DNA from: Minisyncoccota bacterium
GTDB taxonomy: Bacteria; Patescibacteriota; Minisyncoccia; Phycocordibacterales; UBA5272
NCBI GenBank assembly: GCA_018061825.1
Contig: JAGOTK010000001.1
Location: 57,800 to 109,242, forward strand
DNA: 51,443 nt
Reading direction: 5' to 3'
Shown here: positions 3,288-6,333 of the stretch, piece after piece
Numbering within the stretch: position 1 is the first letter of the stretch
Layout of the letters: each line of letters begins with the position of its first letter
Position numbers and translations under genes: made by a program
The notes under the pieces: model-generated
Told to the model about the DNA's origin: nothing
What the model saw: the letters and a program-made list of their open reading frames with translations, nothing else
Databases searched by the model: none

Positions 3288-5051
3288 ATGGATGAAAATA
3301 AAAATAATACAGATGCAAATGAACTACATCATGGCTTAAAATTTCAAGATGATAACCAAGACAGAAAAAGTGATGACTTTCTTGATCTAATGCGCCAAAA
3401 AGAAGAGGAAGATTTTATAAAAGTAATGTCAGACAAATACGGATTACCATATATAGACTTAAAAGGTGTAGCTCCTGAGCCAGACGCTTTAAAACGAGTA
3501 AAAGAAGATGATGCAAAAAAAGCAGAGTTAGCAGCTTTTAAACAAATAGGAAATAAATTATACGTTGCTATGTTTAATCCTGAAAATGAAGCTACAGATC
3601 AAATTTTAAAAAATCTTGAAAGCCATGGTCTTGTGCTTATAAAATTTGTAGCTTCACACGCCTCTTTAAAACATGTATGGAGTAGATATATAGACATTAT
3701 AGAAGTAGTAGAGACTCAAGCTGGAGTGCTAGATCTAAATTCTGAAGTACTAAAAGAGCTTTTGACTCACATAAAAACTTTAGACGACTTGAGAAATACT
3801 ATAATATCAGTTGCAAACGAATCAAAAAACTATAGGATTTCTAGAATTATAGAACTTGTCATCTCAGGAGCTTTGCATTTTAAAGTATCCGATGTGCATA
3901 TAGAGCCTGAAAAAGAAAAAGTGAGATTTAGATATAGAATAGATGGTGAACTTACTGATATTTGTTTTGTAGATTTACCAACAATGCGTTTGATAAACTC
4001 TAGATTCAAATTGCTATCTGGAATAAAATTATCAATAACAAAAAATGCACAAGATGGAAGATACTCTATTGTAGACAATGGAATAGAAATAGAAGTTCGT
4101 GTATCTGTGGTACCTGGAAATTATGGCGAAAGCTTTGTTATGAGACTTCTTGATCCTAGAAATATAATGGCAAATATAGAATCTCTAGGAATGAGTAAAA
4201 GTCTATATGAAATAGTCCAAAGAGCAATAGAAAAACCAAATGGAATAATTTTAACCACAGGACCTACTGGATCTGGAAAGACAACCACACTTTATGCTTT
4301 TGTAAGTAAACTATATACTCCTGAAATAAAAATAATCACTATAGAAGATCCTGTCGAATATCATTTGGCTGGAATAATTCAAACCCAAGTAGAAGAAGAA
4401 AAAGGTTACACTTTTCTTGCTGGACTTAGAGCTGCTATGCGTCAAGATCCAGATATTATAATGGTTGGAGAAATTCGTGATCAAGATACTGCAAAAGTTG
4501 CTATAAATGCAGCACTCACAGGACACTTGGTATTTTCTACACTACACACAAATAATGCAGCAGGTACAATCCCTCGCCTTCTTGAGCTTGGTGCAAATCC
4601 AGGGATACTTGCTTCAGCACTTTCTTTATCTCTAGCTCAAAGATTAGTAAGAAAATTATGTCCACTTTGTAAAGAAAAAGTAGAAACAACAGAAAAACAA
4701 ACAAAACAAATAACAAATATTATAGGTTCAATAATTTCAAATCATAAAGAAGAAGCTCTTGGTGAAATAAAAGCAGCAAATAGCTACACAATATTTAAAG
4801 CAAATGATATAGGGTGCGAAAAGTGTAATGCTGGATATAAAGGCAGAATGGGTATATTTGAAGCAATTGTAATGGATAATGATATAGTTGATCTTCTTTC
4901 TGCACAAGGAATACTAAATGAAAGAAAAATAAAAGAAATAGCAATAAAGCAAGGAATCCCTACAATGAGAGAAGATGGTATAATTAAAATATTGAAAGGA
5001 GAAACTAGTTATGAAGAAGTTGCTAGTGTGGTTGATCTTTATGAAGAATAA
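3288..5051 (+). CDS. pilB: Type IV pilus assembly / type II secretion ATPase (PilB/GspE family)
   Basis: This 587-residue protein is a hexameric cytoplasmic ATPase that powers pilin polymerisation in this family. An N-terminal MshEN-like domain (YGLPYIDLKG onward) is followed by the catalytic core. The Walker A GPTGSGKTTT is at about residue 324, the Asp box is EDPVEY, and the Walker B-like segment is DPDIIMVGEIRD. A four-Cys zinc site follows (CPLC near 458, CEKC near 510), typical of PilB/GspE and absent from PilT. Length and domain order match the family. No pilC, pilin or pilM gene is next to it, so it is an orphan copy within this window. It has a short leader behind an extended -10. Confidence 0.93.
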   Translation: MDENKNNTDANELHHGLKFQDDNQDRKSDDFLDLMRQKEEEDFIKVMSDKYGLPYIDLKGVAPEPDALKRVKEDDAKKAELAAFKQIGNKLYVAMFNPENEATDQILKNLESHGLVLIKFVASHASLKHVWSRYIDIIEVVETQAGVLDLNSEVLKELLTHIKTLDDLRNTIISVANESKNYRISRIIELVISGALHFKVSDVHIEPEKEKVRFRYRIDGELTDICFVDLPTMRLINSRFKLLSGIKLSITKNAQDGRYSIVDNGIEIEVRVSVVPGNYGESFVMRLLDPRNIMANIESLGMSKSLYEIVQRAIEKPNGIILTTGPTGSGKTTTLYAFVSKLYTPEIKIITIEDPVEYHLAGIIQTQVEEEKGYTFLAGLRAAMRQDPDIIMVGEIRDQDTAKVAINAALTGHLVFSTLHTNNAAGTIPRLLELGANPGILASALSLSLAQRLVRKLCPLCKEKVETTEKQTKQITNIIGSIISNHKEEALGEIKAANSYTIFKANDIGCEKCNAGYKGRMGIFEAIVMDNDIVDLLSAQGILNERKIKEIAIKQGIPTMREDGIIKILKGETSYEEVASVVDLYEE

Positions 5052-5230
5052 AAAATAAAAACCATATAGACCTCTAAACAACCTCTTGGTGAAGAAAACT
5101 TTTACATAAGGATAGATGCAGTGTAAAATAAATTTAACTAAATCGTCCTCTGTGAATAAAGTGTGAGACCATGTCTCAATTGTTTAGAGATCTATATGGT
5201 TTTTTAAATAACTGACTATCTTTTTTAAGC
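5050..5230 (-). ncRNA. Candidate structured small RNA between pilB and ruvB
   Basis: A 24-bp arm at 5180-5203 pairs with 5058-5081. On the plus strand there is one C-A mismatch (5071/5190). On the minus strand that position becomes a G-U pair, so the helix is complete only in minus-strand RNA. Inside lie three more hairpins: 5164-5178 (6 bp, 3-nt loop), 5100-5128 (7 bp, 15-nt loop) and 5084-5095 (4 bp, 4-nt loop). A possible pairing of AGGA with UCCU connects the large loop and the junction. A minus-strand promoter lies at 5237-5266, and the closing helix runs into a U-rich tract. The transcript would be about 180 nt. Size and long closing helix recall 6S RNA, but no diagnostic 6S, SRP, tmRNA or RNase P sequence is seen. 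Class unknown. Confidence 0.6.
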
Positions 5231-5236
5231 TTTATT

Positions 5237-5266
5237 ATTCTAGCATAGGTTTGACATATTTGTCAA
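5237..5266 (-). promoter_or_regulatory. Strong minus-strand promoter for the candidate RNA
   Basis: The minus strand reads TTGACA (5266-5261), an 18-nt spacer ending in TATGC, then TAGAAT (5242-5237), giving a predicted start near 5230. No minus-strand protein gene follows until 3169, so it most plausibly drives the structured element. The palindrome TTGACA-TATT-TGTCAA (5251-5266) also gives a -35-like hexamer on the plus strand, but with no well-spaced -10. Confidence 0.6.
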
Positions 5267-5325: not shown

Positions 5326-6333
5326 ATGAAAGAAGATGAAAAACAAACTGAAACAGAAAATATTGTAAAAAATGAAGAAAGCTATTTAGATCAAGCATTG
5401 AGACCAAGCTTATGGAATGATTATATCGGACAAAAAACAATAAAAGATAATTTAGAAATACTAATTAAAGCTGCAAAAGAAAGAAATTCTACACCTGAGC
5501 ATATTCTTTTTTATGGACCCCCTGGTCTTGGAAAAACTACAATTGCTAATCTTGTAGCAAAAGAATTAAATACAAATATAAGAATAACTTCTGGTCCAGC
5601 TATAATGAAAGTTGGAGATCTTGCTGCGATACTTACAAATCTTGGAGATGGAGATATCTTATTTATAGATGAAATACATAGATTAAATAAATTAATAGAA
5701 GAAGTTTTGTATCCAGCAATGGAATCTGGAAAACTTGATATCATAATAGGAAAAGGACCTAGTGCTAGGACAATACAATTAGACCTTCCAAATTTTACTT
5801 TGATAGGTGCCACTACTAGAATATCTCTATTGTCATCTCCTCTTCGTTCAAGATTTTCTGGTGGAGTACATAGACTTCAATATTATTCTGAAGAAGAAAT
5901 AGCAGAAATAGTAAGAAATTCTGCAAAAATTTTAAATACAGAAATTACAAATGAAGGCGCTTTTGAAATTGCAAAAAGATCAAGATTTACTCCTCGTACA
6001 GCAAATTATTTACTAAAAAGATGTCGTGATTATGCACAAATAAATAAAGCTATTATAGATTTAGACATTGTAAATAAAACTTTACAATTATTAGAAATGG
6101 ATGAGCTTGGTCTTGGTATAGCAGAAAGAATGATTTTAAAGGTTTTAATTAAAACTTTTGAAGGAAAAGCAGTAGGACTAAACACTCTCGCGGCATCTAT
6201 AGGAGAAGAAGAAAATACTATCGAAGATGTGATAGAGCCGTACTTAATTCAAATAGGATTTATAGAAAGGACAACAAAAGGAAGAGTGGCTACAGAAAAA
6301 GCAAAAGAGCATTTTAATAAAAATGTTAAATAA
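5326..6333 (+). CDS. ruvB: Holliday junction branch-migration helicase RuvB
   Basis: This 335-residue AAA+ motor drives branch migration of Holliday junctions together with RuvA. It shows [12 protein letters not shown] at the start, Walker [10 protein letters not shown] near residue 64, Walker [12 protein letters not shown], the sensor region GATTR, the arginine-finger region LRSRF and a C-terminal winged helix ending in [11 protein letters not shown]. Length matches the family. The stop overlaps the ruvC start by 11 nt, indicating translational coupling. No ruvA is present in the window. Confidence 0.97.

Follow-up and report, generated by a model that had tools for sequence, protein, structure and literature searches.

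A predicted structured RNA gene of Ca. Paceibacterota, with a promoter of its own, between pilB and ruvB

Introduction

Orphan structured RNAs such as OLE, GOLLD and raiA came out of comparative genomics, and their functions are unknown or were found late. The RNA described here shares with them a deeply conserved structure, but unlike them it has neither a sequence nor a structural match in Rfam 15. 6S RNA (SsrS, RF00013) is of similar size and likewise has a closing helix, its own strong promoter and a single-copy gene. It folds, however, into a rod with a large, mostly open central bubble, whereas the new RNA has a four-way junction with the hairpins P2 and P4; nor was a counterpart to the conserved P3 core of the new RNA recognised in 6S RNA. 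6S RNA binds the RNA polymerase-sigma70 holoenzyme and serves as template for pRNA, and Ms1 binds core RNA polymerase. Ms1, the lineage-specific RNA-polymerase RNA of Actinobacteria, was traced by synteny (PMC9130861). The new RNA is comparable in being lineage-specific, in being traced via its gene neighbourhood and in belonging to a clade where 6S RNA is not found, as 6S RNA long went undetected in the clade of Ms1 (PMC9130861). Ms1 is, however, about 300 nt long and has terminal hairpins besides its central bubble (PMC9130861), and fold, size and lineage differ here. Bacterial SRP RNA (RF00169, RF01854) is also a near-universal structured RNA and has a core role, but the new RNA shows no SRP motif and matches no SRP model; nor did the relatives searched for the Ffh M domain yield one. 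Loss of SRP in Parcubacteria has already been published (PMC4508563), and many CPR bacteria are reported to be without SRP subunits (PMC8080830). The literature searched on small and structured RNAs of CPR bacteria held nothing relevant, mentions of annotation being judged by title and abstract.

Results

The locus, its neighbours and its promoter

The window analysed is a stretch of 51,443 nucleotides, and one copy of the RNA was found in the 537-kb genome that it comes from. The original prediction was an unrecognised structured RNA with its own promoter between pilB and ruvB, and both neighbours were identified by Pfam (Table 1). The overlap of the RNA with neighbouring coding sequence in the window is limited to the pilB stop codon. 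The predicted start was placed about 7 nt past the -10 element and the predicted end in the U-run; the biological core of the RNA is 5055-5205.

Table 1. Features of the RNA locus in the window (positions of the whole stretch)
Feature	Position	Strand	Basis or remark
pilB (T2SSE ATPase), convergent neighbour	3288-5051	plus	Pfam PF00437
Predicted transcript, ~180 nt	5048-5230	minus	promoter and fold; both ends inferred
U-run after P1	5048-5061	minus (A-run on plus)	overlaps pilB stop codon
P1 3′ strand (closing helix)	5059-5083	minus	fold and covariation
Linker UCUUCACCAAGA at P4 position	5084-5095	minus	P4 full length in most relatives
Long arm P3	5096-5162	minus	alignments; conserved AGGAC (5145-5149), UAUCC (5109-5114)
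Hairpin P2	5163-5177	minus	both-sided changes in 4/5 pairs
P1 5′ strand (closing helix)	5178-5202	minus	fold and covariation
-10 element TAGAAT, extended (TGC preceding)	5237-5242	minus	TGn extended -10 in 82/98 scored promoters
-35 element TTGACA	5261-5266	minus	kept upstream of RNA in 98/110 loci
ruvB, divergent neighbour	5326-6333	plus	Pfam PF05496/PF05491

The proposed promoter TTGACA-18-TAGAAT was present at 5266-5237 of the minus strand, matching the consensus at 11 of 12 positions with TG ahead of the -10 element. Such a match by itself is not unusual (2 in the scan vs 2.9 expected from shuffles); its significance lies in its conservation across related loci rather than in the consensus score alone. 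When 200 nt upstream of P1 were scanned, a promoter of at least 10/12 was found in 98 of 110 related loci, compared with 7% of shuffles and 3.6% of opposite strands. As predicted, it serves no protein gene, since none lies downstream and pilB is convergent. The median distance from the -10 element to P1 was about 42 nt in the related loci, and therefore most predicted transcripts carry a short leader. In many copies from genus g4 (L011-L025), TTTGTCA stands directly ahead of P1; it is the inverse complement of TGACAAA in the -35 region and could serve in processing or regulation. In genome G002 (L009:1073-1168), the RNA directly adjoins what appears to be the end of a protein gene and lacks the usual promoter, which may reflect rearrangement or misassembly.

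The expected U-rich end was also present, as an A-run on the plus strand, and is probably a Rho-independent end of the RNA. T was enriched at the 3′ end of P1 (5.6 vs 4.1 per 12 nt). A T-run also follows the same helix on the plus strand, so it may terminate pilB too.

Among 169 fetched stretches, some of them redundant, ruvB lay divergently upstream in 166 and pilB convergently downstream in 148; in the three without ruvB upstream, the RNA was near the end of the available sequence. The RNA was kept where pilB had been replaced (L125, L156, L245, L256 and L261) and where ruvB had been replaced (L276, L283 and L288). L125 and L156 carry other genes in the place of pilB, with a DapB-like protein, named by eye, nearby. 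This persistence indicates a gene of its own that serves neither neighbour alone.

Fold and anatomy of the RNA

The minus strand of 5040-5240 was predicted to fold at -54.8 kcal/mol (z = -7.05), which was equalled by 0 of 200 shuffles. The plus strand folds too (z = -6.06), but there the closing helix is interrupted at a C-A mismatch. P1, the 24-bp helix that closes the whole particle, is unbroken on the minus strand, in agreement with the claim that it is complete only when read in this direction. P2 is a short hairpin on the 5′ side of P1. The upper half of P3 is the most conserved sequence outside P1 and reads GGR-YA-..-UGG, loop, CUG-..-UA-UCC, with an almost invariant tandem U-G/G-U adjoining a G-C pair that never varies. 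On the 3′ side most relatives carry a fourth helix, the hairpin P4, which in the family of the window has shrunk to UCUUCACCAAGR. Of the internal hairpins predicted originally, the 3′ one (5084-5095) is a degenerate form of the larger P4. A four-way junction P1-P2-P3-P4 is supported by the covariation described below.

Two further features were observed at class level. In many class members outside the order (L093-L112, L238-L264) the P4 loop reads CCCA, for which a UGGG in another part of the RNA might be the pairing partner. In the class-level loci L097 and L098 the 3′ part is larger, with an extra hairpin beside P4.

Compensatory changes and the RNA strand

Full or partial homologues were detected by blastn in 3 of 3 sampled genomes of the genus of the window and in 15 of 16 of genus g4 of the same family, and 18 genomes of this family have the same RNA, flanked by pilB and ruvB. 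Three alignments were used: A1 (18 family copies), A3 (wider, 26) and A5 (class-wide, 29). In A1, 95.3% of cells were paired and both-sided changes occurred in 23/53 pairs (shuffled mean 14.6), with a covariation score of 0.375 vs 0.160 for shuffled and at most 0.114 for slid controls. Both-sided changes rose to 43/63 pairs in A3 (score 0.412 vs 0.176 shuffled and at most 0.14 slid) and 47/54 in A5 (0.460 vs 0.205 and at most 0.191). The slid controls somewhat favour these structures, because the structures were partly derived from the same alignments; weight was placed on the size of the gap to the controls and on its persistence over the three alignments. All 24 pairs of the closing helix varied in A5 and 93.5% of cells were still paired; class-wide covariation was seen in 23 of the 24. 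Pairing in A5 was weaker in P2 (48% of cells) and lower P3 (58%), in our reading because a sequence alignment loses register across orders.

The ratio of G-U to A-C cells was 145:11 in A1, 205:51 in A3 and 217:73 in A5. This large excess of G-U indicates that the minus strand is the paired, functional RNA; together with the conserved promoter, it marks the minus strand as the predicted RNA strand. Compensatory base changes, which had been proposed as a check, were thus abundant and beyond controls in A1, A3 and A5, as is the mark of a structured non-coding RNA gene. A conserved promoter of its own, a further such mark, was also found.

Distribution

A covariance model built from the A1 sequences (R1) gave full-length matches in 134 of 297 genomes of the order, and the models R2 and R3 were used for wider searches. 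R2 matched 35 of 41 genomes sampled from the order and 42 of 343 from elsewhere in the class. Of the six negative order members, four carry a diverged copy, and the contig with ruvB is probably missing from the other two. Thirty genomes without a model match were checked via ruvB, which was found in 28, all but these two order members. Upstream of ruvB, 24 of 27 readable model-negative cases had a long closing helix scoring 39 or more (108 shuffles gave a mean of 25.6, sd 3.7, maximum 41), and the P3 core was visible by eye in most of these 24. The three readable exceptions also had no pilB there. Such a near-complete presence among the sampled order members would be expected of a housekeeping RNA.

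At E 0.001, R3 matched 26 of 32 genomes of the class and 1 of 348 from the rest of the phylum, with filters so strict that the window's own copy was missed, and absence beyond the class is thus not proven. The single weak match from another class of the phylum (L292:1500-1610, E 9e-4) has CUGCAGGCA/GUCUGCAG ends, a P3-like GGAAAAUCCGGUUUCGACUCGAUUUUUCC arm and a similar core, and is without pilB and ruvB. It is possibly a distant homologue, but with about 0.35 false matches expected it is only a lead. The class-level match L096, with an odd fold and without pilB or ruvB, was taken as false.

A pattern scan hit at least 119 contigs, whose titles include Nomurabacteria, Taylorbacteria, Zambryskibacteria, Kaiserbacteria, Vogelbacteria and others, organisms named as Ca. 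Paceibacterota or Parcubacteria. In our preferred reading, the RNA gene is inherited vertically across one class of Patescibacteria (Ca. Paceibacterota), the GTDB name of which we take to be Paceibacteria.

Comparison with known RNA families

The RNA had been described as unrecognised, and no Rfam match was obtained at the gathering score in the window, or at or above it in 36 related loci searched at relaxed E-values. Relaxing the E-value brought up no meaningful match in the window or in these loci. A match to rliE was a chance one (18.6 bits vs a gathering score of 90), as were weak matches to SdsR and SraC/RyeA, below the cut-off. A resemblance to 6S RNA had also been pointed out. RF00013 exceeded its cut-off in 0 of 61 related genomes, with controls positive in 5 of 14, and no 6S model match was among the matches listed for the RNA loci at relaxed E-values. 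Given this and the four-way junction, which differs from the rod and large open bubble of 6S RNA, membership in the 6S family is not supported; a functional analogy may still hold.

SRP RNA was rejected as a hidden identity. RF00169 was matched in 0 of 21 relatives and large SRP RNA (RF01854) in 0 of 13, and the Ffh M domain (PF02978) was found in 0 of 13 relatives compared with 14 of 14 controls. By the same methods, RNase P RNA was detected in 18 of 21 relatives, with the copy in the window's genome lying elsewhere (G000:C6), and tmRNA exceeded its cut-off in 18 of 21, away from the RNA locus, which indicates that the search tools work on these genomes. The RNA is thus not a hidden RNase P RNA or tmRNA, as both are located elsewhere, tmRNA below the cut-off in the genome of the window. 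There its best score was 29.6 bits, whereas most relatives have a clear one; it is probably missing from the assembly or diverged. A small ORF was excluded because the window copy and several others have stops in all three frames and no frame is kept; no conserved ORF was found in the RNA.

Discussion

These comparisons support the reading as an unrecognised structured RNA that has a promoter of its own, and the locus is almost certainly a real, uncatalogued RNA gene. Its strand, fold, promoter, distribution and independence from the neighbours are established by comparison of sequences. In the model that we favour, a strong extended -10 promoter of the sigma-70 type would drive a stand-alone structured RNA, about 180 nt long. 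The RNA would form a four-helix particle of the closing P1, the hairpins P2 and P4 and the long P3 with its conserved core, and transcription would be ended by P1 and the U-run. Near-universality across the order, a strong promoter, a single copy, independence from the neighbours and a conserved fold suggest an RNA that acts in trans as part of a ribonucleoprotein and would presumably be abundant. By analogy, its partner would be a general machine, most likely RNA polymerase, this being the least certain step, and in this lineage, where 6S RNA was not found, the RNA may fill the niche of 6S RNA and Ms1, the global tuning of transcription. Among known niches this one fits best by elimination and by the precedent of Ms1 (PMC9130861). 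As no 6S RNA was found in the lineage, the niche would be open; however, an absence of 6S RNA requires no replacement, and the four-way junction without a large open central bubble, unlike 6S RNA, argues against a true 6S RNA. We put the probability of this whole chain, up to a trans-acting RNA in the 6S/Ms1 niche, at roughly 30%.

Several other explanations were weighed. That the region is a long bidirectional terminator or 3′-UTR hairpin of pilB, with no RNA gene, is suggested by the helix and T-run that can be read on the plus strand, but this is very improbable: the minus-strand promoter is conserved, G-U exceeds A-C in all three alignments (145:11, 205:51, 217:73), the conserved internal arms would be superfluous for a terminator, and the RNA is present without pilB. 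Promoter, G-U excess and persistence without pilB led us to reject it. A MITE-like mobile element, which the long inverted repeat with internal structure might bring to mind, is scarcely credible given the compensatory evolution, and is contradicted by the single copy and the orthologous site in nearly all relatives. The synteny, with ruvB divergent in 166/169 and pilB convergent in 148/169 stretches, some redundant, would agree with a regulator tied to type IV pili or DNA uptake through pilB, or to recombination through ruvB. Yet the RNA survives the loss of pilB or ruvB and overlaps no coding sequence in the window past the pilB stop codon, and conserved synteny may merely reflect an old gene order, so we consider such a link improbable.

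Slightly less improbable, though still unlikely, is a regulatory sRNA that pairs with mRNAs and is folded for stability. Its own strong promoter, the probable terminator and unpaired stretches that are conserved in the window family, UCUUCACCAAG among them, are in line with this, but the structure is kept at full length while the possible seed stretches differ between families, and conservation across a class is rare for sRNAs. The most serious competitor, to which we give a minor but real share, is a trans-acting ribonucleoprotein RNA whose general partner would be a different one, such as the ribosome or a factor for protein targeting or quality control. The loss of SRP leaves a niche for such an RNA (SRP RNA went undetected in 21/21, large SRP RNA in 13/13 and the Ffh M domain in 13/13 relatives), and near-universality in the order with a single copy resembles a core ribonucleoprotein. 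On the other side, the RNA has no SRP-like motif and is essentially confined to the class, whereas reports of missing SRP subunits extend to many CPR bacteria (PMC8080830).

More broadly, it is somewhat short of an even bet that the RNA is an undescribed, near-universal and class-wide housekeeping RNA of CPR bacteria, the core of a ribonucleoprotein with a new function or one replacing lost 6S RNA or SRP. What is new is the RNA family itself, without a claim to a new function, and its broad spread suggests a basic role. It is rare for a new RNA family to turn up in almost all sampled members of a large order and to be widespread in its class too. The host bacteria are among those with the smallest genomes and have lost SRP, yet they have kept this RNA under strong selection on its fold. 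With covariance models, promoter and locus at hand, the question of its role becomes testable, and the RNA points to a core process that is absent from current descriptions of the biology of Paceibacterota.
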